A DNA stretch of 64,000 bases from Poriferisphaera corsica. GTDB lineage: Bacteria > Planctomycetota > Phycisphaerae > Phycisphaerales > Phycisphaeraceae. Location of the stretch: NCBI RefSeq assembly GCF_007747445.1, contig NZ_CP036425.1, positions 3,828,175 through 3,892,174 of the forward strand. Direction: 5' to 3'. Below, piece by piece: positions 31,082 through 64,000 of the stretch. The notes beneath the pieces were generated by a model. That model saw only the letters and a list, made by a program, of their open reading frames with translations. It made no database searches and had not been told where the DNA came from. The stretch's first letter is position 1; the number at the start of each line of letters is the position of its first letter. Both the position numbers and the translations under genes were made by a program.

Positions 31082-34000
31082 TTAACTCAAAGCTGCCAGC
31101 TGCGATTCGACACTCGCAAGCTCCTTTTCCGCTTCCATCAATTGGTCGCGTGTCTGCTGCACAAGGTGCTCCGGTGCTTTATCAACATAACTACTATTCG
31201 ACAGTCTACCCTTCAATGCCCCCACGCTCTTCACAAGCTCAGATTTACGCTTATCCAGCCTCGTTCGTTCTGTATCCGCATCAATCAAACCATGCAGGTA
31301 AACCTCAAACTCGCCCACAGTTGTCACGGCAGCATCCCCAGGCTTCTCAACCTCATCACCAAACGCAACCAACTTCACGTTTGCAAGCGCCTCAGCAAAA
31401 CCCCCTTCGACCAACACACGTTCTATTGCATGCTTAGGGCCCCTCACTGACACTTCCACCGTCTCACGAGGCACGACTTTATACGTCGTACGCACCTCAC
31501 GAATCGCACCAATCACAGCCTGCATTTTCTCGAAAATCTCGCCTGCATGTTCATCCACATGCAACACATTAACCTTCGGCCAAGCCGCTTTCATCAGCAA
31601 CCCACTGCCCTCAGCATCAATCCCCTCTATCCCTCGATTAGGCATGACTGCGTTCAATGCTTCCCACAATTTCTCAGTCACAAACGGCATAGACGGATGC
31701 AACAGCCTCAACGACACATCAATACACGTCGCTAATACCTGCTTCTGCTTCCCATTCTCACGAATCGTCGGCTTAACCGCCTCAATATACCAGTCACATA
31801 AATCTCGCCAGAAGAAATCATATAAATCCTGCGTATATACACTGAACTCATACCCCTCCAAAGCCTTACTCGCACCATTCATCACATTCGCCAACCTGCC
31901 AATGATCCAACGGTCCGCAACACCCAATCCCTCGTCACTCGGGCTGACCGGCCCATCAGCCTGCTCGCCTTCACTCAAATTCCCCAAACTAAACCGTACC
32001 GCATTCCAAAGCTTATTCGCAAAACGCTGGCCGTAGTCAAATTTCTCACTCGTATTACGTGCCGCCGGCACGTCCTCACGTGGCTTCGCAACGCCTGAAG
32101 CAACACCATAAGAGCTGATCATCTGACCACCCTTATATTCCTGCTCTGGTGCAGCGACCTTATGACCACCACTCGCAGTAATGTACTTAGGCGTAAACGT
32201 CTCACCACTATGCGGATCAACCATATCCACAGACATCCTCACGTCTTGCGTCTGAGTCGTCATGCTCGTAAGCGTAAACCGCATCGCATCTGCACCGTGA
32301 CTATGAATAATATCCAGCGGATCGACCCCATTCCCCAACGACTTACTCATCTTTTGGCCATGACCATCTTGAATCATCGCATGAATAAACACGTCCTTAA
32401 ACGGCAATCTATTCATAAAATAGACATTAAACATCACCATGCGGCTAACCCACAACGTAATGATTTCTCTCGCCGTACTCAGCACACTTGTAGGATTCCA
32501 TTTTTGCAATACCTCGTTCGCAGCATCCAACGCACGATCATTCACCCACCCCATCGTGCTCATCGGCCAAAGCGCCGAGCTAAACCACGTATCCAAAACA
32601 TCAGGATCCTGTTCAAAACCAAGATCCTCTAACAGCTTCACCGCATCAGCATCATCTTCACTTCTCACGCAAATATAACTCGCGCTTAGATCAACCTGAC
32701 GCTGTTGGCCCTGCATATCCGTATCGTTATGCTGCAATGCAATCCGATCCTCATTCCGCATCGCAACCAACGTTTCAAGCATCAATCGAAGCTGCTCTTC
32801 GCTCCGCGAATCAATCTTCTCATCATGCTTAAACGACCACACCGGAATCCGATGCCCCCACCACAACTGGCGAGAAATACACCAGTCCCGAATATTCTCA
32901 TGCCACATCTGGAAAGTTTTCGCATAACGCGGCGGCTGGAACTCCAAACCACCTTCCCATTCACCCTGCGCTGCCCGCCCATCCTTACATGCAAACGAAT
33001 CACCACGCTTCCACACACAACCATCTAATTCCTGACGCTGCTCCTGCTTCATCGCACGCAGCGCCGCACCCGCCAAACGATCATCCGCAACCTTCACATA
33101 CCACTGATCCGAGAGCCAAGGCTCAACCGCAACATGTGAACGATAGCTATGCCCCACCGCATGACGGTACGGCTTAATCTCCGCCATCAATTCCTTTTCT
33201 TTAAACCAACGCACGATCCACTTCCGCGCCTCCTCACGAGACAAACCCAATATCGGCTCTATCTCCTGAATAGTACATTCATCCCAATCTTCCCAACCAA
33301 AATCTTTGCTAATCGCCCCATCCGGCCCCATCACATTAATCACAGGCAGATTATGCCTTAATCCAATCTCCCAGTCGTTAGGATCATGCGCCGGCGTCAC
33401 CTTCAAAAACCCGCTCGCCATTTTCGCTTTCGCATCATCACTTTTTTCATCCGGGATCACCACATAATCATCCCCAACAATCGGAATAATCCGCCCTACA
33501 ATCGGCAACCTCACATGCATCCCAATAAACTTCGCACGCGGCTCATCATCAGGATTCACCGCCACCGCCGTATCACCCAACATCGTCTCCGGGCGTGTCG
33601 TCGCCACAGTTGCAAAGTCACCCGTATCAACCCATTCCCCATCATCATTCTTCTCAACCACAGGATACTTCATATACCAGAAGCTCCCATCCACATCCTG
33701 CATTTCGACTTCATCATCCGCCAGCGCAGTCTGCGTCGCAGGATCCCAGTTCACTAACCGCTTACCGCGATAAATCAGGTCATCCTTAAACAGCTTATAA
33801 AAAGCCTCTCTCACCGCCTTCGCGCACTGCTCGTCCATCGTAAATCGCTGACGATCCCAGTCACACGAGCACCCCATCAGCTTTAACTGACTCGAAATCA
33901 CCCCCTCATACTCATCCTTCCAAGCCTGAATCTTGCCCACAAATTCATCACGCTCAAAATCTGTTCGCTTCTTTCCCTCTTCCGCCATGACACGCTTCTC

Positions 34001-34327
34001 AACCACCGTCTGCGTCGCGATCCCCGCATGATCCGTCCCCGGCATCCACATCGCATTCTTACCCAACATCCGGTTATAACGCACCAACACATCCTGCAAC
34101 GTATTGTTCAGTGCATGCCCCAAGTGCAGCGCAGCCGTAACATTCGGCGGCGGAATCACCACACCATACGCCTCACCCTCATCACTCGGATCCCCATGCC
34201 ACGCCTTCACCGCATCCCACTTCGCAGCCATCGCATCTTCAACCGCCTCCGGTCGATATTGGCTCGCTAATTCAAATCCACCCACCTGCTGCGCTTGTCC
34301 CTGTTCCATTTCTTGATTCTCAGACAT
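31082..34327 (-). CDS. valS: Valyl-tRNA synthetase
   Basis: It charges tRNA-Val and edits misactivated threonine. It is a class I enzyme with the HIGH motif as HLGH (residues 68-71) and KMSKS near 656-660. The CP1 editing domain lies between them and the anticodon-binding domain follows. A C-terminal coiled coil of about 70 residues (from TERTRLDKRKS) is typical of ValRS. At 1081 residues it is longer than many bacterial ValRS. An extra stretch of about 45 residues follows the KMSKS region (YKGGQMISSYGVASGVAKP). A valine-rich leader ORF and alternative hairpins lie upstream (34465-34580), which suggests attenuation. Confidence 0.97.
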   Translation of the reverse strand: MSENQEMEQGQAQQVGGFELASQYRPEAVEDAMAAKWDAVKAWHGDPSDEGEAYGVVIPPPNVTAALHLGHALNNTLQDVLVRYNRMLGKNAMWMPGTDHAGIATQTVVEKRVMAEEGKKRTDFERDEFVGKIQAWKDEYEGVISSQLKLMGCSCDWDRQRFTMDEQCAKAVREAFYKLFKDDLIYRGKRLVNWDPATQTALADDEVEMQDVDGSFWYMKYPVVEKNDDGEWVDTGDFATVATTRPETMLGDTAVAVNPDDEPRAKFIGMHVRLPIVGRIIPIVGDDYVVIPDEKSDDAKAKMASGFLKVTPAHDPNDWEIGLRHNLPVINVMGPDGAISKDFGWEDWDECTIQEIEPILGLSREEARKWIVRWFKEKELMAEIKPYRHAVGHSYRSHVAVEPWLSDQWYVKVADDRLAGAALRAMKQEQRQELDGCVWKRGDSFACKDGRAAQGEWEGGLEFQPPRYAKTFQMWHENIRDWCISRQLWWGHRIPVWSFKHDEKIDSRSEEQLRLMLETLVAMRNEDRIALQHNDTDMQGQQRQVDLSASYICVRSEDDADAVKLLEDLGFEQDPDVLDTWFSSALWPMSTMGWVNDRALDAANEVLQKWNPTSVLSTAREIITLWVSRMVMFNVYFMNRLPFKDVFIHAMIQDGHGQKMSKSLGNGVDPLDIIHSHGADAMRFTLTSMTTQTQDVRMSVDMVDPHSGETFTPKYITASGGHKVAAPEQEYKGGQMISSYGVASGVAKPREDVPAARNTSEKFDYGQRFANKLWNAVRFSLGNLSEGEQADGPVSPSDEGLGVADRWIIGRLANVMNGASKALEGYEFSVYTQDLYDFFWRDLCDWYIEAVKPTIRENGKQKQVLATCIDVSLRLLHPSMPFVTEKLWEALNAVMPNRGIEGIDAEGSGLLMKAAWPKVNVLHVDEHAGEIFEKMQAVIGAIREVRTTYKVVPRETVEVSVRGPKHAIERVLVEGGFAEALANVKLVAFGDEVEKPGDAAVTTVGEFEVYLHGLIDADTERTRLDKRKSELVKSVGALKGRLSNSSYVDKAPEHLVQQTRDQLMEAEKELASVESQLAALS

Positions 34328-34464: not shown

Positions 34465-34512
34465 GATCACACATCCCTTTCACAGAAGGGGAAGGATCGG
34501 GGGTCGTCCCCT
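34465..34512 (-). promoter_or_regulatory. Candidate attenuator of valS
   Basis: Just after the leader stop, AGGGGA (34512-34507) can pair with TCCCCT (34492-34487). That segment can instead form a hairpin with GAAAGGGA (34481-34474), bounded by GATC/GATC. The two folds exclude each other, as in peptide-dependent attenuation. The T-tract after the hairpin (TGTTTGATT) is weak, so termination strength is uncertain. A further hairpin GTTCTC/GAGAAC lies at 34413-34431. Confidence 0.5.
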
Positions 34513-34556
34513 CAGCGAACGGCGACGCCGACCGCTACATGACTTTGCATCATCAT
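34512..34556 (-). CDS. Valine-rich leader peptide of valS
   Basis: A 14-codon ORF reads MMMQSHVAVGVAVR and ends in TGA. Four of the last eight codons are Val (GTA, GTC, GTC, GTT). It begins about 12 bases after the expected transcription start. Like the ileS leader, it is followed at once by a segment able to pair with the 5' arm of the next hairpin. A ribosome stalled for lack of Val-tRNA would leave that segment free. This is seen directly in the sequence. The regulatory role is an inference by analogy with pheST- and ilv-type leaders. No strong ribosome site is visible. Confidence 0.55.
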   Translation of the reverse strand: MMMQSHVAVGVAVR

Positions 34557-34574
34557 CCGAATCATATCAGCCGC

Positions 34575-54010: not shown

Positions 54011-57000
54011 TTAGAAGAGAATGTTGAGGCCGAGAGTAATGTTTTGCGTCTTGAGGCTGCTGCGGTGCTCGTATGCGTAATCGAATGAAGCTTTCATACG
54101 ATCGTTGATCTGGTAGTCGAAGCCGGTGCCGAATTCGATGGCATTTTTATCGGATTCGATGCCGGTGGTGCTGAAGGGTGTGGAGCCAACGGACTGGAAG
54201 GTTGAGGTGACAGTTGGAGCATCGTTAGCGAAATCGTATTTGTAATTAATCTGAGCATTGAGCTTGAGATTATCTGAAGCTTGATAGATGCTCTTCAGGC
54301 CAACGGTGGCTGTGACGATATCGTTGTCGAATGAATCGACGTTGAGATTCAGAGCGCCGGCTTTGGACTCTTCATATTTTTCTTGTGTGAAATATGTGTA
54401 GGCGATTTGAGCATTGGGGATGAAGGCGAGACGTTTGTCGTTAGAGACGATGTCGTAAGAAACACCGAGGTAGTTGGTGAAAGTGTGTGAGTTCACATCG
54501 TCGGCTTCGGCGGTTCGGCCGAGTGCGGTTTCACGTTTGTAATCGGCGAGGCCGAGGGTGTAGATGGAACCGCCTTCGAATTTGAAGTTTTCATCGGTCC
54601 AGGCGAAGTAGGCACCTAACGTGAAAGCGTCGAGATCGGTTGAGCCACGAGATTGGTTGGAATCGATGTCGGCATGAGCGAAGCCGAAGGCTGCGCCGAG
54701 GAGGACGTTGCCTGTCATGCGGTCGAGGCCGACGAGTGTGCCAGCAGCTTTGGATTCGTAGCCGGGGATACTGCCATCATCGTCTTGCTCTGTGAATGAG
54801 CCGAAGGCTGAGGTCCAGAACTCGTAGCCATCTTCATCACGCATGGTTGGGCCGGAGAAGAGGAGTGGGTAAGCGTCTGAATCAGCAGCGGCGATAGCCT
54901 GGCCGGCATTGAGTGTTTGTGTGCGTACGGTGAGTGAGCGAGCGATAGATGATGTGGTTTCGGTAGCAGCGTTGGCGGTTGAGAGTGACTGTTGTGGAGT
55001 GATTTTATTGAGCTGCTCTGCGAGTTCCTCTTCTGAAAGGTCTTGGAATTTGTCGAGGACGTCGGCTGCGTCGCCGGTGAGGTCGGCGTCGAAAGCATCC
55101 TGGAGTGATTGCGCGGCTTTGAATGCTGGAGTGTTTGCGTATTCCTGAAGGTCAGCGAAGGTTGATGCGGTGAGGATGATTTGGTTGCCGGTGGAGGAGA
55201 GTTCGGCTTCGTAATCGATAAGAGCAGTGTCTTTGATGAGGTTGAGGCCGGTGACGTCGGATTCAAAAGTGATTGTGTTTACTGAATCGACGAGTGTGAA
55301 TTGGGCTTCGCCTTGGAGTGGGCCGTTGAGCTGGGTGCTGATATTTGCACCGTCGTTGAAAGAGGCGTTTGTGGTTTCGATTGTTGAGGTTGTTTTTGAT
55401 GCGGCATCGAGTGTGTAGTGGAGTCCGCCGTTGGCTGCGACGTTTAGGTTTGTGGTTTTGATGTTTCTGTTGAAGCCGAGGGTGCCGTGGTTGACGTTGA
55501 TGGTATCGAAGACGTTGCGTTGATCGGTATTGTCGTAATCGTTGGCGAAGTTGAGTTGCCATGTTTCTGTTTGGGTTGATGTGGTATCAGAGTTTTGGTT
55601 GATATTGAGTGTTTCGATGCCGTAGAGGTTGTGGTTGTAGGTACCAGTGCCGCGGAGGGTGAGAACATCGGCGGTGGTTTGGTCGCTGAGACGGATGTCG
55701 CCGATGATGTTTGCGCCGGTGGATAGGGTGATTGAGTCGTCGCGATTCGATGGCGACCAAGTTCCGCCCGCATAGGATTCGCTTGAAATCGCTGCGGCAA
55801 CGCCGCTTGGGTCAGTTGCGATAGCGGAGATTATGCCGGTGATGTTGCCGATGGTGATGGGGCCGTTGTGTGCTTCGATGCCATAGACTTCGCTGGCGCC
55901 TTGAGCGTAGATGCTGCCAGCGATGGTGTTGATGGTGATGCCGCCGGAGCCTTGCGTGGTGATACCGTAGACGTTGCGGCCTGAACCGGTAACGTTAATG
56001 TTGCTGGTTGATGTGATGTTGCCAATCCGAATGCTCTGAGCGCCGAAGCCTTCGGCTTGAATGCCCATGGCAGAGCTGTAGCCGAAACTGTTATGGCCTG
56101 TGCTGAAGACGGTGATGTCGCCGGCGAGGTTGCCGGTGATGTCGAGATCGCCGCTACTGGCGACAATGCCGCGGACGAAAGTGCCGGATCCGCCGACGTG
56201 GATATGGCTCTCCTCAGCAATCGAATTAATCAGGACATTATCAGTTGCGTACAGACCGCTGACAAAAGATTGGTCAGATGTGTTTTTGCCGCCCGTGGCG
56301 GTGATGCGGCCGCCGAAAGTGCTGGTGATCTCGAGGTCTGAGCCGGCGTAGATGCCAGCGACATTGCTGCCGGTTGCGGCGATATTGATGTGGCTGTCGG
56401 CAGATACGAAATTGATTGAGACGTTGTCGGCTGCGCGGATACCGTAGGCGTAGGAAGCGCCAGCGTTTTGACCGGCATTGATGGTGACGTCGCCGACGAA
56501 TGTGTTTGAAGACGTAAAATCGCCATTAGCGGTATAGAAGCCGGCAACGTTGGAGCCTGTAGCGTTGATTTCGATGTTGCTGGTGTCGTCGAAGTCGCCG
56601 ATCGTGATGTCGTTATCCGCGTAGAGGCCGTATGCATTGGATACGTTCGCGTTATTACCGGCATCGATGGTGATATTACCACTCAAATAGTCGATGTCGA
56701 TGCTGTTTGAGATGGAGCGTATGCCGTAGGCTTGGTCATTTGTTGTGGTGACATTGATCTGGCCGCCGGAAGTGACAGTGCCGATATCGACGAGTTGGCC
56801 GGCATGGATGCCTGTGACGTCTGAGGTGCCGGTGGCAGATATATCGCCAGAGAGTGCGCCGATGGATACACCTGAACCGGCGTTGATGCCGTAGAGGCTT
56901 GTTGATCCATTGACGGTGATATCACCTGCGAGTTGGTTGGTGATGTTGACGTTGCCGGCTTGGCTGCGGAGTCCCATACCGAGAGCGCTGTTGCCGGTGA

Positions 57001-58435
57001 TTGTGATTGATGCGGTGTCAGTGAAGGCATTGATATTGATGTCGTTGATAGCGGTCATTGCGTATTGGCGGAAACTTGAAGCGGTGCTGTTGAGCGTGAT
57101 GTCGCCGGCGAAGTCGCCGAGGATGTCGATTGTGTTGCCCTGGATACCATTGACATCCGAACCTGCGCCGGTTGCGGTGATTTGGCTGGTTTCGGCGATG
57201 GATCCGATGGTGACGCTGCCACTTGAATATAGTCCTGTAGCACCATCAGTGGTAGATACGACGGTGATATCACCGGCGAGTTGGTTGGTAATGGTGAGGC
57301 CGTTTGCGGAACCGGCGGAAATACCATTGATCACATTTCCGGCGCCGGTGACGGAGATGAGGCTGGTGTCAGCGATTGAGTCTAAGGTGACACCTTGCTG
57401 GCCGAATATGCCGAAGATTTGGTTACCGTTTGATTGCACGTCAATGTCGCCGGCGAGGGGGCCGGAGATGGTGACGTTGCCGGCACTTGCATGGATACCG
57501 GAGACGCCGTCGCCAGTACCTGTCACATTGATTTCACCGGTTTCTGCGATTGATCCGATGGAGATGTTGCCTGCAGCGGAAGTGATTGCAGATGCGTTGG
57601 ATTCATCTGTGGAGCTTTTGCCGGCGTGCACTTCGATGTTGCCGCTAAGAGCGCCTTTGATATCAACGGCGCCATTGGCATAGATGCCGTGCACATTGGA
57701 TGTATTTACGATACGCGATTGATAGTCGGAATCTGATTCGCCGGAACGTTTTGTGTTGATCAGGAAATCACCTGCCATGTCGCCGTCGCCACCTGTGCCT
57801 GTGGTGCCGATGGTGATTGTGCCGCCGGTATGGATGCCGTAGATGTGCTGGCCGGTGCCTGCTGCGGAGATGATGCCGGTTTCAGCGATACGCGTGCTGG
57901 TTATGGCACCAGATCCGGCTTTGATCGCGTAGACATTGGAATCGCCACCGGGGTCGACTTGTCCTGTGACGCTGAGCGTGCCTGCGACGGTTCCCAAGTC
58001 GAGGTTCCCGCTATCGATAGAGATGCCGCGTGTGCCGTAGTCTAGTGAGTAGACTTGGTAGTTTGAGTTAGCAGCGAGATCGATGGTTAGATTGGCAGTG
58101 CCAGTTGCTGAGATTGAATGAAGTTGACCACTTGTATTGAAGGTTTGAACTTTCCCTTCGATACTGATGTTCATGTCATCGCCAGATGTCATCCAGTACG
58201 TGCCGGCCGCGAGGTTGATGTTATGCGGGCTGACTAAGTCGGGGTCAACAACGCTGGTCGGGACATTAACTGTGACAGCACCGGTGAAGGATTGGAAGTC
58301 TGGGTCAGGACCGCCGATCTGATATTCCCAATTGCTACCACTCGTGTTAACTAAGCCAGCGTTAAGTGAAGATGGAATCGCCATGGAACAGAATGCGGCG
58401 AGGAGAATCGCGGTGGAATAGGATGAAGATTTCAT
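54011..58435 (-). CDS. Autotransporter (type Va) with beta-helix passenger
   Basis: A very large surface protein of 1474 residues. A signal peptide ends near residue 26 (SLNAG). The passenger (about 60-1130) is built from at least ten imperfect repeats alternating IGSIAETSxIxVTG with a NVxGI...LAGDITV block, typical of a right-handed beta-helix. A linker with a helical EELAEQLNKITPQQS segment (near 1140) leads to a C-terminal barrel of about 280 residues that ends in Phe, with DEDGYEFWTSAFGS as its start. The fold implies display on or release from an outer membrane. Function may be adhesion or aggregation. No protease motif was seen. Confidence 0.9.
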   Translation of the reverse strand: MKSSSYSTAILLAAFCSMAIPSSLNAGLVNTSGSNWEYQIGGPDPDFQSFTGAVTVNVPTSVVDPDLVSPHNINLAAGTYWMTSGDDMNISIEGKVQTFNTSGQLHSISATGTANLTIDLAANSNYQVYSLDYGTRGISIDSGNLDLGTVAGTLSVTGQVDPGGDSNVYAIKAGSGAITSTRIAETGIISAAGTGQHIYGIHTGGTITIGTTGTGGDGDMAGDFLINTKRSGESDSDYQSRIVNTSNVHGIYANGAVDIKGALSGNIEVHAGKSSTDESNASAITSAAGNISIGSIAETGEINVTGTGDGVSGIHASAGNVTISGPLAGDIDVQSNGNQIFGIFGQQGVTLDSIADTSLISVTGAGNVINGISAGSANGLTITNQLAGDITVVSTTDGATGLYSSGSVTIGSIAETSQITATGAGSDVNGIQGNTIDILGDFAGDITLNSTASSFRQYAMTAINDININAFTDTASITITGNSALGMGLRSQAGNVNITNQLAGDITVNGSTSLYGINAGSGVSIGALSGDISATGTSDVTGIHAGQLVDIGTVTSGGQINVTTTNDQAYGIRSISNSIDIDYLSGNITIDAGNNANVSNAYGLYADNDITIGDFDDTSNIEINATGSNVAGFYTANGDFTSSNTFVGDVTINAGQNAGASYAYGIRAADNVSINFVSADSHINIAATGSNVAGIYAGSDLEITSTFGGRITATGGKNTSDQSFVSGLYATDNVLINSIAEESHIHVGGSGTFVRGIVASSGDLDITGNLAGDITVFSTGHNSFGYSSAMGIQAEGFGAQSIRIGNITSTSNINVTGSGRNVYGITTQGSGGITINTIAGSIYAQGASEVYGIEAHNGPITIGNITGIISAIATDPSGVAAAISSESYAGGTWSPSNRDDSITLSTGANIIGDIRLSDQTTADVLTLRGTGTYNHNLYGIETLNINQNSDTTSTQTETWQLNFANDYDNTDQRNVFDTINVNHGTLGFNRNIKTTNLNVAANGGLHYTLDAASKTTSTIETTNASFNDGANISTQLNGPLQGEAQFTLVDSVNTITFESDVTGLNLIKDTALIDYEAELSSTGNQIILTASTFADLQEYANTPAFKAAQSLQDAFDADLTGDAADVLDKFQDLSEEELAEQLNKITPQQSLSTANAATETTSSIARSLTVRTQTLNAGQAIAAADSDAYPLLFSGPTMRDEDGYEFWTSAFGSFTEQDDDGSIPGYESKAAGTLVGLDRMTGNVLLGAAFGFAHADIDSNQSRGSTDLDAFTLGAYFAWTDENFKFEGGSIYTLGLADYKRETALGRTAEADDVNSHTFTNYLGVSYDIVSNDKRLAFIPNAQIAYTYFTQEKYEESKAGALNLNVDSFDNDIVTATVGLKSIYQASDNLKLNAQINYKYDFANDAPTVTSTFQSVGSTPFSTTGIESDKNAIEFGTGFDYQINDRMKASFDYAYEHRSSLKTQNITLGLNILF

Positions 58436-58819
58436 GATTGACCCATTTCAATAAGAGCGCATAAAAATAGCGCAACTGCTTCGAGCTGAACGCAGAAAGG
58501 ACACAGAACAAGTTTGATTGGTAGGAAAAACAGTACCAGATCGTGTGTGGGTATTATCGGTTGTAATCTGGGTCATTGGCAACTACAGCCGGCTGATTGT
58601 TGAAAACGAATTATCTTTACTTGTTTAGTAACAATTATGGTGCGATTTAGACTGAATATGGATTTATTATCGGAATGAGGGGGATCCGGGGTATTTTTCA
58701 AGCAATGTATTATCGGTCTGAATGTGGGAGGCGGGGATTGATTTGAGACTTAATAGTCACACCAAGCCGAGGATCAGAAAGGCCATCGTGAGGCTGCGAT
58801 TGAGGGGGAAACGGTTATT

Positions 58820-58847
58820 TTGCCGAGAAGTGGGGAGGCGGTATACT
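58820..58847 (+). promoter_or_regulatory. Promoter of the ileS leader
   Basis: TTGCCG and TATACT separated by 16 bases. Transcription should start near 58854, a few bases before the leader ORF. Confidence 0.6.
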
Positions 58848-58860
58848 AAATAGCTTAAAG

Positions 58861-58914
58861 ATGAAACCGCAAATATTGATTATCGCTGAAATTATTATCA
58901 TTAGCACTGCATGA
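58861..58914 (+). CDS. Isoleucine-rich leader peptide of ileS
   Basis: A 17-codon ORF reads MKPQILIIAEIIIISTA and ends in TGA. Seven codons are Ile (ATA, ATT and ATC all used), four of them in a row close to the end. It lies between a promoter and an intrinsic terminator upstream of ileS. Directly after its stop, GGCAGGG can pair with CCCTGCC of the terminator. This is the standard layout of ribosome-mediated attenuation (trp, his, ilv, pheST leaders): stalling at Ile codons would free the antiterminator. The ribosome site is weak and the 5' end very short, so it may be translated from a near-leaderless transcript. Confidence 0.75.
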   Translation: MKPQILIIAEIIIISTA

Positions 58915-58916
58915 GT

Positions 58917-58974
58917 GGCAGGGCCGGCGATCGTTACAACGAACAGTCAACCCTGCCTACAAGCGGGGTTTTTT
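58917..58974 (+). terminator. Attenuator: antiterminator segment and intrinsic terminator before ileS
   Basis: The terminator is AACCCTGC-CTACAA-GCGGGGTT (58949-58970) followed by T, one G-U pair in eight. GGCAGGG at 58917-58923 is exactly complementary to CCCTGCC at 58951-58957, so the two structures exclude each other. A ribosome resting at the leader stop (58912) would cover GGCAGGG and allow termination. Confidence 0.75.
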
Positions 58975-59086
58975 ATTGTTTTGGGGAGAACGGGAGGCGG
59001 GGCCGTCGATGGCGGCGGGGGATATGATTTTGAAGCATACGAGGGCCTGAGATGGCCCGTAAAGGAAGATATAGGAAGCACTTAAG

Positions 59087-61930
59087 ATGAGTGACCAGGC
59101 AGAAAAGCGTAATTACAAGAAGACATTGAACTTGCCGAAGACGGCGTTTTCGATGAAGGCGAATCTGGTGCAGAACGAACCGGCATCACAGAAGCGATGG
59201 GACAAGCTTAATGTGTACGGGCTGTTGCGTGAGAAAGGGAAAGAGGGCGGATATGCGAAGGGCGGATTTGTGTTCCATGACGGGCCTCCGTATGCGAATG
59301 GGAATATTCACATGGGGCACATGCTGAATAAGGTGCTGAAGGATTTAGTGGTGAGAAGTCGTGGGATGATGGGATATGACACACCGTATACACCGGGCTG
59401 GGATTGCCATGGGTTGCCGATTGAGCACAAGGTGATGCAGGATTTGGGCGAGAAGGCGAAAGAGATGGAGCCGATCCAGATCAGGCGGAAGTGTAAGACG
59501 TATGCTGAGAAGTTTGTGAAGCTGCAGAAAGGGCAGATGCAGCGGCTATTGACGATGGCGGATTATGATGATCCGTATTTGACGATGTTGCCGCGATATG
59601 AGCGAGGGGTGCTAAACGTATTCGCGGGGTTAGTGGAAAAGGGGTTGGTTTACAGAGCGCTTAAGCCGGTGCACTGGTCGGTTGAGAATCAGACGGCGTT
59701 GGCGGATGCGGAGCTTGAGTATTACGACCGTGAAGACACGTCGGTTTATGTGAATTTTGAGATCGAAGGGAAAGAGAACGAGTACCTGATGATCTGGACG
59801 ACCACGCCGTGGACGCTGCCTGCGAATATGGGCGTGGCTGTACATGAGCGTTATGAGTATGGGAAATTTAAGCTGCCAAATAGTGGTACGGCTATTGTGG
59901 CATTAGAACTGGCGAAGAAAGTACTGGCGGCGGGCGGTGTTGAAGATGCTGAGCCGATTGAGACGTTCAAAGGTTCGGAGCTGGTTGGGCTGAAGTACAA
60001 GCAGCCTTTGACTGGAAAGGTTTGCCCGGTTGTCCATGCAGAATACGTGACACTGGAAGATGGTACGGGGATGGTTCACACGGCACCGGGCCATGGTGTT
60101 GAGGACTATCAAACGGGTTTGCGTGAAGGAATCGAGATCTATTGCCCGGTTAGACCTGACGGCACGTATGACGAGACGGCGCCGGAGTGGTTAGTGGGCA
60201 TGCACATCTGGGAAGCGAACGATAAGGTTGTCGAATTTTTGCGTGAAGCGGGAAGCTTGTTCCATGATCATAAGTTCATGCATAGCTATCCGCATGACTG
60301 GCGAGGGAAATCGCCGGTGATTTTCAGGGCAACGGAACAGTGGTTTGTCGGCGTAGATAAGGCGTATGATGGTTGTGGGGAAGGCTTGCGTCATGCGGCT
60401 GAGGTCGTCACCAGTGACGGCGGGGATGTACGATTCTTGCCTGAGTGGGGTCGCAATCGTATGCGTGGGATGCTTGAGTCGCGGCCAGACTGGTGTATTA
60501 GTCGCCAGCGTTCATGGGGTTTGCCGATCCCAGCGTTTTATAATGAAGCGGGCGAGCCGCTGATGACGACGGCGAGTGCGAAAGCTGTGGCGGAATGCTT
60601 CGGTAAGCATGGGTCAGATTCGTGGTTTGTTGCTGAATCTAATCAGATATTAGAAAGCTATGATGTTGCCAACGATGCGGAAGCTCCGGAATGGGCGAAA
60701 GCTGAGGGGGCGTTAGCCGGTCTACGCAAGGGCAAGGATACGTTTGATGTTTGGTTTGAGTCAGGTTCAAGCTGGAATGCGGTTGTGCGTGAAGGCTGGG
60801 AAGCAAAGCAATCCAAGCATGCTGATGAGAACGTGAAAGAAACCACGGATCTTTATCTTGAAGGTTCTGACCAGCATCGTGGTTGGTTCCAGCATTCGCT
60901 GCTGCCGAGCGTGGCAATTCATGGCGTGAGCCCGTTTAAGACGGTGCTAACGCATGGATTTATGGTCGACAAAAACGGCCACAAGATGAGTAAATCATTG
61001 GGTAATACACTTGATGTACAGGATTTGATGAAAGAGTATGGCGCGGATGTTTGCCGATGGTGGATCTGTTCACTAAATACGGATAACGATATTAAGGTTG
61101 ATCAATCGTATTTTAAAGTGGCGGGTGAAGAGTATCGTAAGGTACGTAACACGATCCGTTTCTTGCTGTCGAACTTGAGTGACTTTGATCCAAAAACTGA
61201 TGCTCATAAATTTAGTCATGATGATGCACGGAGTATTGATGCGTGGGCGATGAAGGCTTACGTTGATATGGCAAAAGGAGTTGTTGATAAATATGAGAAT
61301 TATCAGTACCGATCACTAAGCCGCGATCTGTTCAACTTCTGCAATGATACGATGTCGAGCGTTTATCTTGTTGCGGTAAAAGATCGTTTATATTGCGATA
61401 AGACGAACAGTGCGAGACGCCGCAGAAGTCAATCGGCTATCTATCGGATTGTTAGTGGCTTGATACGCTTATTGGCGCCGATCATGCCACACACTGCTGA
61501 TGAAGCGTGGCGAGCATTACTGAAGGTTGACCAGAAAAGTAACGAATGCGTGCACGTCAAAGAGTTCCCGACGATGAAAGGCTGCAGCCTGATTGCAGAA
61601 CTTGCAAGCAATGAGTGGACGGGTGTTATGGATACTCGAGATGAGATGCTCAAAACCATTGAGGACTACCGCCAAGAAGTAGGGATCGATAACCCATTAG
61701 ATCTTGGCTTGGTATGGAATAAGATCAAGGATGTGGATCTCAATGCATTTGATGCTGTAGATCTTGCAGATCTGATTGGTGTGAGCCGTTTTGCTACTGG
61801 CGAAGCGATTGCTGTCCAAGATCTGCGTGAGGAATCAAGATGCGAGCGTAGTTGGAAACGTGATGGCACCGTGAAGGAACGCGGCGATGGCGGCATGCTT
61901 AGCGACCGTGATGCTGAAGCAATATGCTGA
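59087..61930 (+). CDS. ileS: Isoleucyl-tRNA synthetase
   Basis: A class I synthetase that charges tRNA-Ile and edits valine. The HIGH motif is HMGH at residues 75-78 and KMSKS lies near 633-637. The CP1 editing domain (MIWTTTPWTLPANMG, HTAPGHGVEDY) and anticodon domain are complete. The C-terminal zinc finger of bacterial IleRS is degenerate. The usual CxxC pairs read CERS and SDRD, leaving one Cys of four, so zinc is probably not bound. AGGAAG precedes the start. Expression is probably set by the Ile-rich leader and attenuator upstream. Confidence 0.97.
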   Translation: MSDQAEKRNYKKTLNLPKTAFSMKANLVQNEPASQKRWDKLNVYGLLREKGKEGGYAKGGFVFHDGPPYANGNIHMGHMLNKVLKDLVVRSRGMMGYDTPYTPGWDCHGLPIEHKVMQDLGEKAKEMEPIQIRRKCKTYAEKFVKLQKGQMQRLLTMADYDDPYLTMLPRYERGVLNVFAGLVEKGLVYRALKPVHWSVENQTALADAELEYYDREDTSVYVNFEIEGKENEYLMIWTTTPWTLPANMGVAVHERYEYGKFKLPNSGTAIVALELAKKVLAAGGVEDAEPIETFKGSELVGLKYKQPLTGKVCPVVHAEYVTLEDGTGMVHTAPGHGVEDYQTGLREGIEIYCPVRPDGTYDETAPEWLVGMHIWEANDKVVEFLREAGSLFHDHKFMHSYPHDWRGKSPVIFRATEQWFVGVDKAYDGCGEGLRHAAEVVTSDGGDVRFLPEWGRNRMRGMLESRPDWCISRQRSWGLPIPAFYNEAGEPLMTTASAKAVAECFGKHGSDSWFVAESNQILESYDVANDAEAPEWAKAEGALAGLRKGKDTFDVWFESGSSWNAVVREGWEAKQSKHADENVKETTDLYLEGSDQHRGWFQHSLLPSVAIHGVSPFKTVLTHGFMVDKNGHKMSKSLGNTLDVQDLMKEYGADVCRWWICSLNTDNDIKVDQSYFKVAGEEYRKVRNTIRFLLSNLSDFDPKTDAHKFSHDDARSIDAWAMKAYVDMAKGVVDKYENYQYRSLSRDLFNFCNDTMSSVYLVAVKDRLYCDKTNSARRRRSQSAIYRIVSGLIRLLAPIMPHTADEAWRALLKVDQKSNECVHVKEFPTMKGCSLIAELASNEWTGVMDTRDEMLKTIEDYRQEVGIDNPLDLGLVWNKIKDVDLNAFDAVDLADLIGVSRFATGEAIAVQDLREESRCERSWKRDGTVKERGDGGMLSDRDAEAIC

Positions 61931-61952
61931 TATAACTAGATATGTGATTACT

Positions 61953-61983
61953 AAAAGCCTTGCTCGAAGCAGGGCTTTTTTAT
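61953..61983 (+). terminator. Intrinsic terminator of ileS
   Basis: AAAAGCCTTGCT and AGCAGGGCTTTT around CGA with a T-tract. Confidence 0.88.
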
Positions 61984-62165
61984 TAGCCCAAACGTCATAA
62001 CCCGCATAACTCTAAGTCAATAAGTGAAGATATGTTAGTTATTCTGAATATCAAAAGGAGATTGCGGACATCCATACAGGTCGCGGTATGAGTAAATGCA
62101 AATCGGGACGATAAAAACGATGTGTGTTGAATTAAACTGCTTGTGTTTGGATGAGGATTAATGAC

Positions 62166-62597
62166 ATGAATCTAAGAATTGCTGAGATACGTTTACCAGA
62201 GGTAGATGATGCAGTTTTATTTCTTGGAGGATGCGGATGTGAGATTGATCGTGGCTATGTGCAGCATACATTGAGCCTGATCGCTCGAGATGAGATGGGT
62301 GAGATTAGAGGTGTGGCAATGTGTGCCGGCATTGAAGGGAAACCTCACACGAAGTTACTTGTTGGTTGCTCTGAAGGCATTGATGAGGACGCAATACAGG
62401 AAATTACAAATAAAGCCATTATGAAATTGCATGCAGTAAAAATGAGTAAGTTTAAAATCCTTCTTTACGGGTCGATTAAAGGGCAAACATTTTGGCCGCG
62501 AAACAATTGGCTCATACATCTAGATGAAACTGATCAGGTTTCGATTGATGACTATGACGTGAATGACAAGGCTGACTCTAGAAGTTTGGTTGCGTAG
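62166..62597 (+). CDS. Hypothetical protein
   Basis: Not recognised. The 143 residues form a mixed alpha/beta protein with a Cys-rich LFLGGCGCEID stretch near residue 18 and further Cys at about 53 and 70. It has no signal peptide or membrane helix. The start at 62166 is preferred because GAGGA lies eight bases upstream. Its last 20 bases overlap the end of the convergent phosphatase gene, which may limit simultaneous expression. Confidence 0.6.
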   Translation: MNLRIAEIRLPEVDDAVLFLGGCGCEIDRGYVQHTLSLIARDEMGEIRGVAMCAGIEGKPHTKLLVGCSEGIDEDAIQEITNKAIMKLHAVKMSKFKILLYGSIKGQTFWPRNNWLIHLDETDQVSIDDYDVNDKADSRSLVA

Positions 62598-64000
62598 ATG
62601 CGTGCGATTGGGTTGTGTTATTTAGATCATATTTGATGATGATCAATGTGATATCATCTTCTTGCAAAGAGGTATTGCGGAAGTTTGCAATATCGTTAAG
62701 TATGACATCTGCGATACTTGATGCTGAACGATGAGAATTCTTCCGAATTATTTGCTGCAAGCGTTCTTTGCCATAAAAATCACGATTTTCATTTCTTGTT
62801 TCCCATATTCCATCTGTGCCGAAAAACAGAATCTTACCCGGTGTAATCGAGGTTGATTTTGCGCCGCTATAGGGCCAATCGTGCAATACTCCCAACGGGA
62901 TGTCTGTTCCAGAAAGTTCGGTGAAGACGCGCCTATCCATATCATAGACTAAGGCTGGGTCGTGACCAGCCGAAATATAGTTCAGATTCAATTGTGAATT
63001 TTGCTGGCCAGATTGAGTTATGTTCATATAGAACAATGTCATGAATTTACCTGCAAAACGTGACTCACATAAATGGGCGTTAAGACTTTTGAATATTGTC
63101 TTGAGGTCATCTGGCGATATAACATGAACTCTTAGCAAAGCCCGCGTTGTGGCCATAAGAAGAGCAGCGGCGATGCCGTGCCCAACCACGTCGCCGATTG
63201 CGACGCCCAGTGTAGGATGAGGCGCATTCTCAAATGTAATGAAGTCATAGTAATCACCGCCTGTTTCATCGCAATAGAGGGAGCATCCAGCAATATCTAA
63301 ATCATGGAAAACAGGGGGTTTTTCAGGTAATAATGCTTGTTGAACTTGCATTGCAAGATCGATCGATTCGGAAAGCCGAAGATGATCTTGCAGCTTGGGA
63401 ACCATGGCGTTGAATGTATTGGCGAGCTGCCCGATTTCATCTGAACGACGTGGAAGATGAACTTGGGTATCAAGGTCGCCGGAGGCAATACGTTCTGCGG
63501 CGCGTGCCATTCGAAGAATCGGTTCGGTAACTGTACGTGAACGCGACCATGCGAGCACGATCACAAGGATGATCACACCGATCAGAACAACCGTTGAAAT
63601 GCGGATGAGTTGCCATGTTTTCTCTTCAGCAATACTGCGAATGACAGAGGCTCGCTCGTCAATTTCATTAAAAGGCACCATCACAAGAAGGCATGCTCTA
63701 GGACCAATAGAAGCGTAACCCCATACAGCCTGCTTCTCGTTTTGCATTACATTCATAATACCTGAGTTTTGATCAAGCATATCTTCGATCAGTTTGTTTC
63801 TAACATTCGTAGATTCAATCACCAACGGGTGGATGTTAAGTTGCAATTTCCAATCAAGTTGTTCGTTTTGGAGCTCGGTATCTGCAATAATCACGGGTGT
63901 TGGTATGTCACCAGCAGCTGGGTTATAGGGTTCAAGCGTGTTTGTATTGGCTAATGCGATGAGTAGTAATCGAGAGTTAGACCATTGTGATGGCAGACGG
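62578..64000 (-). CDS. HAMP-SpoIIE (PP2C-type) phosphatase, N-terminus beyond the window
   Basis: A membrane receptor with a serine/threonine phosphatase output. The frame stays open to the window edge (reading back through NPAAGDIPTP and LLLIALANTNTLEP), so the 5' end is missing and the GTG at 63894 is not the true start. An extracytoplasmic sensor part is followed by one helix (VVLIGVIILVIVLAW), a HAMP domain (AERIASGDLDTQV, RSDEIGQLANTFNAM) and a SpoIIE domain with GGDYYDF, GDVVGHGIAAAL, SAGHDPALVY and FGTDGIWE. Metal-binding Asp residues are intact. Such proteins often act on anti-sigma-factor antagonists. The partner is not in view. Confidence 0.9.
   Translation of the reverse strand, partial: RLPSQWSNSRLLLIALANTNTLEPYNPAAGDIPTPVIIADTELQNEQLDWKLQLNIHPLVIESTNVRNKLIEDMLDQNSGIMNVMQNEKQAVWGYASIGPRACLLVMVPFNEIDERASVIRSIAEEKTWQLIRISTVVLIGVIILVIVLAWSRSRTVTEPILRMARAAERIASGDLDTQVHLPRRSDEIGQLANTFNAMVPKLQDHLRLSESIDLAMQVQQALLPEKPPVFHDLDIAGCSLYCDETGGDYYDFITFENAPHPTLGVAIGDVVGHGIAAALLMATTRALLRVHVISPDDLKTIFKSLNAHLCESRFAGKFMTLFYMNITQSGQQNSQLNLNYISAGHDPALVYDMDRRVFTELSGTDIPLGVLHDWPYSGAKSTSITPGKILFFGTDGIWETRNENRDFYGKERLQQIIRKNSHRSASSIADVILNDIANFRNTSLQEDDITLIIIKYDLNNTTQSHASTQPNF

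Follow-up and report, generated by a model that had tools for sequence, protein, structure and literature searches.

Introduction

Does the short isoleucine-rich open reading frame (ORF) upstream of ileS in the planctomycete Poriferisphaera corsica control this gene, and by what kind of switch? The locus lies in a stretch of 64,000 nucleotides (nt), hereafter the window (C1:3828175-3892174), of a genome that consists of a single contig of 4,291,168 bases. An earlier note on this DNA had read the region as an isoleucine (Ile) leader-peptide attenuator. We compared the locus with its relatives and conclude that the region is very probably a ribosome-speed transcription attenuator, built on an Ile-rich leader peptide and controlling ileS, with a sister copy that would control the citramalate synthase gene cimA. 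Conservation at ileS, the second copy at cimA and clean controls support the reading of the earlier note, and an Ile leader-peptide attenuator is by far the best reading of the comparison.

The ileS leader of the window

All parts of the putative attenuator lie on the plus strand. The promoter-like site consists of a -35-like TTGCCG (58820-58825) and a -10-like TATACT (58842-58847), with 9 of 12 promoter matches and a 16-nt spacer. It is followed by the leader ORF MKPQILIIAEIIIISTA (58861-58914), in which seven of 17 codons are Ile and four of these stand in a row (ATT ATT ATC ATT, 58891-58902), the presumed stall site. These parts, all named in the earlier note, were read directly in the window; a simple test found no Shine-Dalgarno-like sequence for the leader ORF. 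The GGCAGGG segment (58917-58923), the putative antiterminator 5' arm, had been placed directly after the leader stop; it is present but starts 2 nt after it. Its exact complement CCCTGCC (58951-58957) is also present, although not wholly on the 5' side of the terminator stem as proposed, since the last C falls in the terminator loop; it would serve as both the antiterminator 3' arm and the terminator 5' arm. The intrinsic terminator itself, AACCCTGC-CTACAA-GCGGGGTT followed by a T-run (58949-58974; stem 58949-58970), was confirmed and ends 112 nt before the ATG of ileS (59087-61930), which codes for an isoleucine--tRNA ligase of 947 residues (TIGR00392, 843.7 bits against a cut-off of 621.4). 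In addition, segment 1 (AUCGCUG, 58882-58888, Ile-alanine codons) and segment 2 (CGGCGAU, 58925-58931) are possible partners of each other, with mixed support.

The locus thus carries the sequence marks of a leader-peptide attenuator, namely a codon cluster, a terminator and a target gene of matching function; geometry and predicted folding point to a mutually exclusive antiterminator that a ribosome at the stop would mask. In the proposed mechanism, RNA polymerase would start at the leader AUG or a few nucleotides before it, and a ribosome would initiate on this leaderless or nearly leaderless 5' end. With sufficient Ile-tRNA the ribosome would reach the stop and cover GGCAGGG, leaving CCCTGCC free, and the terminator would form. 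When charged tRNA-Ile is scarce, the ribosome would stall on the Ile codons and expose GGCAGGG, which would then pair with CCCTGCC, so that transcription continues into ileS (or cimA). The tiny ORF would thereby probably let the ribosome gauge isoleucine supply and switch on both genes.

Conservation upstream of ileS

A search for IleS in 101 genomes gave a match in 100, of which 10 were excluded from the upstream counts (contig-end cuts, split matches, or only another synthetase). The 90 usable upstream regions comprised 45 from the family of the window (f1) and 45 from other families of the order. A fixed rule was applied, requiring an ORF of 8-40 codons with at least three Ile within 8 codons, located within 420 nt of the gene, and with its stop 10-65 nt upstream of an intrinsic terminator. 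By this rule, an Ile leader with terminator precedes ileS in 22 of 45 f1 genomes, and 4 of the 45 regions outside f1 passed as well; one pass, L074, was a false case, in which the rule had picked up the tail of an upstream gene and the terminator behind it. The controls were clean: none of 29 valS loci of f1 passed (starts via tblastn; L248 skipped for lack of a start; L239, L246 and L251 with less than 420 nt, leaving 26 of 29 with the full length), nor did any of 30 aspS loci of f1 (starts via tblastn; L305 with less than 420 nt, leaving 29 of 30). Among triplet-shuffled ileS upstream regions, 4 of 900 passed.

The earlier note had staked its reading on an Ile-rich ORF and an alternative pairing being found in close relatives, and the comparison did not refute it. 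An Ile-rich ORF and a terminator are kept before ileS in L020, the nearest relative (90% IleS identity), and in 20 more f1 genomes, and the arm motif GGYAGGG occurs in 23 of the 25 leaders collected. Among relatives that have a named record, strain ZRK32 (CP066225.1) is the closest, with 89-90% IleS identity. The leader peptide is conserved mainly as Ile codons and as residues set by the RNA arms. Specifically, the last codon is CGG in 21 and the stop TAG in 22 of 25 ileS leaders, and this ending is conserved because CGG-UAG-GGC would itself serve as the antiterminator arm and pair with GCCCUGCC; most relatives thus have the UAG stop within the arm. In the window and L020 the frame reaches its stop, TGA, a few bases sooner, and the arm became GGCAGGG, a perfect partner of CCCTGCC.

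Two kinds of deviating ileS leaders were seen. In L034 (G035), part of the Ile run is lost and the leader ends in ITIALIVFFSPGTR and the stop, with valine (Val) and phenylalanine instead, while arm and terminator are kept; this leader is perhaps a changed or decaying sensor. In L067-L070, from family f5 of the order, the leaders are diverged and end in PH, TGA and GGC, followed by a hairpin GGCCCCGCC..GGTGGGGCC with a poor T-run; two of the four have a 7-bp arm, GGCGGGG/CCCCGCC.

A second copy before cimA and the spread of the element

A covariance model, R1, was built on 24 ileS leaders. In the genome of the window it recovered the ileS site with 70.9 bits (expectation value, E, 4.5e-13) and a second site, C1:1983890-1983991, with 57 bits (E 1e-9), the next match having an E of 0.01. 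The second site carries the leader MTTANNSIIAIAIIITYPM, closed by a stop, and the same layout of arm and terminator as at ileS, with arms that are changed but still match. The gene directly after it is a citramalate synthase gene, cimA (483 residues examined; TIGR00977, 593 bits against a cut-off of 450). Citramalate synthase supplies isoleucine synthesis from pyruvate, and ileS and cimA probably form an Ile regulon. The cimA gene is found in 46 of 51 genomes of the family. Here the rule for an Ile leader and its terminator was applied up to 450 nt from the point where the DTTLRDG motif begins; it was passed by 29 of the 30 loci closest to that of the window and by 6 of the 16 others, or 35 of 46; at the cimA of G019 the rule chose another ORF than the likely leader.

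Independently of the rule, a three-part DNA pattern (arm, terminator, T-run) was searched over the 51 genomes and gave 36 matches in 28 of them, 17 at ileS, 18 at cimA and one at aspS, with genes assigned by position; the two copies of the window genome are not part of these 36. The reversed pattern gave no match in the same 51 genomes.

Across the order, R1 matched at E of at most 1e-4 in 57 of 400 genomes (39 in f1, nine in f6, eight in f3 and one in f2). All eleven matches of f6 were inspected: two lie at ileS (L063, L101) and nine at a gene with the cimA motif DTTLRDG, of which L326-L329 pass the Ile rule, L330 fails it, and L220, L221, L222 and L253 were read by eye. For f2 and f3, inspection covered five of nine genomes, with G156, G250, G347 and G383 left out; one match each from G108, G146, G226, G233 and G359 showed no Ile leader by the rule, so these were rejected as Ile elements and are probably plain terminators. 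Over the phylum, 10 of 392 genomes had a match, nine of them in f1 and f6. Within reach of these scans, the Ile element thus appears to be a feature of two families, f1 and f6; absence elsewhere is weak evidence because filtering was strict in the scans of the order and the phylum, with 9 and 10 candidates per genome reaching the scoring step.

Promoter position and the leader start

The position of the promoter was analyzed in 53 leaders, comprising 25 of ileS and 28 of 30 of cimA (L272 and L279 left out), by searching the 45 nt upstream of the start codon for the best-matching -10 hexamer. In 41 of the 53, a hexamer with at least five of six matches ends 6-10 nt upstream of the start codon; choosing start codons by hand where several were in frame may have sharpened this pattern somewhat. 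Such a box at 5-11 nt was found in 1.9% of shuffled upstream regions. A Shine-Dalgarno-like sequence was present in only four of the 53, all among the 12 without a close -10 box. Since transcription usually starts 6-7 nt after the -10 box, the RNA would begin on the AUG or at most about four bases before it, and the leader ORF is probably leaderless. In the window, TATACT ends 13 nt upstream of the leader ATG, as it does in L020, which by the same spacing would give a 5' leader of about six bases. The earlier note missed this near-leaderless promoter position, as it missed the cimA copy and the stop codon inside the arm in most relatives.

Helix pairing, folding and chance expectation

The aligned ileS and cimA cases retain the terminator and its T-run, and the terminator helix covaries in relatives, with none of 500 shuffles reaching the covariation score. 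Folding was predicted for 23 leaders. A ribosome at the stop hides the arm by geometry, and with that RNA hidden the terminator is predicted in 23 of 23. With a ribosome on the Ile codons and the terminator 3' arm not yet made, 22 of 23 are predicted to form the antiterminator. Covariation of the arms, which the earlier note had proposed to look for, was found in part: the aligned ileS leaders show almost no variation in the antiterminator arm, but modest covariation appeared once 30 cimA leaders were added (14 of 500 shuffles for the score, 3 of 500 for paired cells). For example, in the window genome and in L257 the cimA copy has a U-A pair in place of the usual U-G. For the arm listing, L055 and L036 were left out for lack of the GGYAGGG anchor; L036 was restored in the ileS alignment (A1) and L055 was not, and the cimA rows of the combined alignment (A2) were anchored on several arm-like motifs.

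Several observations weigh against the attenuator reading. The rule failed at 23 of 45 ileS genes of f1, 10 of 46 cimA upstream regions are without an Ile leader, and the cimA of L279 fails the rule yet has an R1 match (E 3.4e-6). The aligned sets were partly selected by an arm-like motif. Because the arms hardly vary, the pairing at ileS rests on complementarity and not on covariation. The antiterminator is also predicted in 20 of 23 leaders with no ribosome before the 3' arm is made, and the leader of the window favours it without a ribosome even at full length. In the stalled state, only 13 of 23 leaders favour the antiterminator at full-length equilibrium, and the model thus leans on the order of folding. 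In addition, pairing of segments 1 and 2 in fixed register was not above shuffles. Downstream of the terminator, TATGAT (59023-59028, plus strand) with its flanking GGGGRATATGATTT is common to the window and L020; this kept box may be a second promoter, and transcription from it would bypass the terminator.

With regard to segments 1 and 2, a helix in fixed register was rejected, the signal appearing in a register-free arm swap alone (70 of 20000). The segment 1:2 back-up of classical attenuators is weak in this element because the antiterminator is favoured even without a ribosome. The fold of the window leader, another check proposed earlier, is mildly better than shuffles (z -1.68, with 11 of 200 shuffles equally good), and a strong global fold was rejected on this result. 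At least five Ile in 8 codons occur in 4 of 1470 short ORFs of the window, one being the leader and another antisense to it. A promoter or terminator taken singly is not beyond chance: the region 56000-63500 holds 9 promoter-like sites against 9.9 expected from shuffles, and 6 terminator-like sites against 6.7. The combination of parts and its conservation are far beyond chance, as comparison with relatives shows and the single parts do not. What the DNA itself shows is the leader ORF, a pair of mutually exclusive helices that are conserved, a second copy of the element and -10-like boxes next to the leader start.

Alternative explanations

The same gene and physiological signal could in principle be served by a T-box riboswitch that senses uncharged tRNA-Ile directly. 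T-boxes precede ileS in Firmicutes. They are also reported before ileS in some Actinobacteria (PMC1262725). Rfam 15, however, gave no match at gathering score in the whole window, and at E of at most 1 the region matched only two small-RNA families, both far below their gathering scores, and no T-box model. A T-box or another Rfam family was rejected on this ground. As the leader measures only about 120 nt from promoter to T-run and its conserved feature is a reading frame, we consider a T-box extremely unlikely. Hardly more probable is an ordinary terminator of some other transcript beside a chance Ile-rich ORF. The unremarkable promoter and terminator counts of the region would suit this explanation, as would the several weak R1 matches elsewhere that resemble plain terminators and the false case of L074. 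The upstream neighbour is divergent (54011-58435, minus strand), however, so that no long plus-strand gene upstream needs this terminator, and conservation at both ileS and cimA, set against none in the valS and aspS controls, refutes the chance reading in practice.

Two further explanations are improbable to a similar, slightly lesser degree. The ORF-terminator unit might chiefly yield a short stable RNA or a peptide that acts independently, as is described for the leader RNA and peptide of trpL in Sinorhizobium meliloti (PMC7298713). The planctomycete peptide, however, is conserved mainly in its Ile codons and arm-set residues, and the unit is present at two Ile genes in many genomes; such a product would in any case be compatible with attenuation and not exclusive of it. 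Alternatively, transcription-translation coupled polarity, by Rho-dependent or translational control, could do the work with the hairpin playing a minor part. The valS gene of the window has a Val-containing leader ORF without a visible T-run terminator, so another leader mechanism may exist in the family, whereas at ileS and cimA the T-run terminator is kept in the aligned cases.

Leaders at other genes and neighbouring features

The valS observation concerns a short ORF, MIRMMMQSHVAVGVAVR with a stop (34512-34565, minus strand), which has four Val codons and a TATAAT 9 nt before its ATG and lies upstream of valS (31082-34327, minus strand). In a number of relatives the end of this leader is nearly fixed as GTCGCCGTTAGCTGA GGGGACGACCCCC, that is, V-A-V-S and the stop followed by a small hairpin; no T-run terminator was seen in these valS leaders, and the valS leader had no Rfam match. 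Among 301 genomes of the order, 13 contain the sequence TGAGGGGACGACCCC, once each, and by position every copy lies just upstream of valS; the reversed control gave one.

At aspS, G022 (L171) has a leader MRYPFGAPGGNGHNNPSPSR with asparagine (Asn) or Asn and aspartate (Asp) codons, CGG-UAG-GGC, an 8-bp partner and a terminator. In G006 (L180), the leader MLTAPTNANRQDHTPQGR, again with Asn or Asn/Asp codons, ends in CGG-TAG and is followed by a terminator; its arm pairing is unconvincing (4 bp). With Asn/Asp codons, the rule held at 2 of 30 aspS loci, one of which, L312, is without the arm motif, and the design was absent from the other 29 aspS loci save one chance-looking ORF. An Asp/Asn leader as a general feature of aspS was thus rejected, being sporadic at best. 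At leuA, G021 has a leucine (Leu)-containing ORF with TAGGGC and a terminator, with an arm of only 5 bp. Two tandem Leu-rich ORFs precede a leuA-like gene (assigned by eye) at L255 (G573:C58, family f83 of the phylum). They read MLNGSLKLLLLSPSCGRE, perhaps with an earlier start, and MSACRTLLLLALLLLGLP, both closed by a stop and followed by a terminator, with arms of 8 and 6 bp; the locus looks like tandem Leu attenuators.

From these leads we put forward a broader proposal, about which we remain slightly doubtful: planctomycetes of the order of the window may share a lineage-specific kind of attenuator, in which the leader ORF is leaderless and its stop codon forms part of the antiterminator, and may use it to tie genes into a regulon that responds to amino-acid supply. 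It would cover Ile (ileS, cimA) and sporadically Asp/Asn (aspS) and Leu (leuA), beside a terminator-free Val leader at valS. It is rated slightly less probable than it would otherwise be, since neither the leader at aspS in G006 nor that at leuA in G021 has a convincing arm.

As a side observation, the divergent neighbour of ileS (54011-58435, minus strand) codes for a secreted-looking, repetitive protein of 1474 residues, whose C-terminal region resembles an outer-membrane barrel by eye.

If the attenuator reading is true, ribosome-speed attenuation would be an established regulatory system in Planctomycetota, and a regulon without a protein regulator would link the making of an amino acid (cimA) to its loading onto tRNA (ileS). 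Transcription-translation coupling in this phylum has been debated, and the very compact design, with the AUG at or near the RNA 5' end and the stop inside the switch helix, would offer a test bed for leaderless translation-transcription coupling. The covariance model can be used for annotating the element.

Comparison with known systems

Classical leader-peptide attenuators are those of trp, his, ilvGMEDA and pheST in enterobacteria. The planctomycete element resembles them in its short ORF with clustered cognate codons, in an antiterminator opposed to a U-tract terminator and in a codon-matched gene product, and, by analogy, in the proposed use of ribosome stalling as the sensor. It differs in that the leader ORF appears near-leaderless and mostly without a Shine-Dalgarno-like sequence, in most relatives the antiterminator arm takes in the UAG stop, the targets are ileS and cimA, the host is a planctomycete, and the segment 1:2 hairpin is poorly supported. 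Mycobacteria have leaderless poly-cysteine leader ORFs, which likewise use a leaderless short ORF as an amino-acid sensor and, unlike the planctomycete element, are not known to have an intrinsic terminator switch. The T-box riboswitches of ileS share gene and physiological signal but sense tRNA directly, and no T-box match was obtained here.

Among reported cases, leuS and trpS of Streptomyces are predicted classical leader attenuators in the sections of PMC1262725 at hand. They are alike in placing an aminoacyl-tRNA synthetase gene under leader-peptide attenuation and unlike in amino acid and phylum, and the same sections describe T-boxes at several actinobacterial ileS genes. For S. meliloti trpL, the available part of PMC7298713 gives the 5' end of the attenuated RNA as the ATG of the leader ORF. 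An RNA start at the leader ATG, reported there, is suggested here by the -10 position, whereas amino acid (tryptophan) and host (an alphaproteobacterium) differ. A survey of premature terminators has neither planctomycetes nor ileS in the main text as far as accessible (PMC2965389), and short leader genes in Planctomycetes were treated by distance statistics in a study whose available text does not contain ileS (PMC4833913). In agreement with the earlier note, which knew of no description of peptide-based control of ileS in planctomycetes, the open-licence PMC literature yielded no report of leader-peptide control of ileS or cimA, or of such control in planctomycetes, although a comparative study of attenuation from 2010 may hold related predictions. 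By its sequence the element fits the definition of a classical leader-peptide attenuator, and by analogy it would work in the same way.
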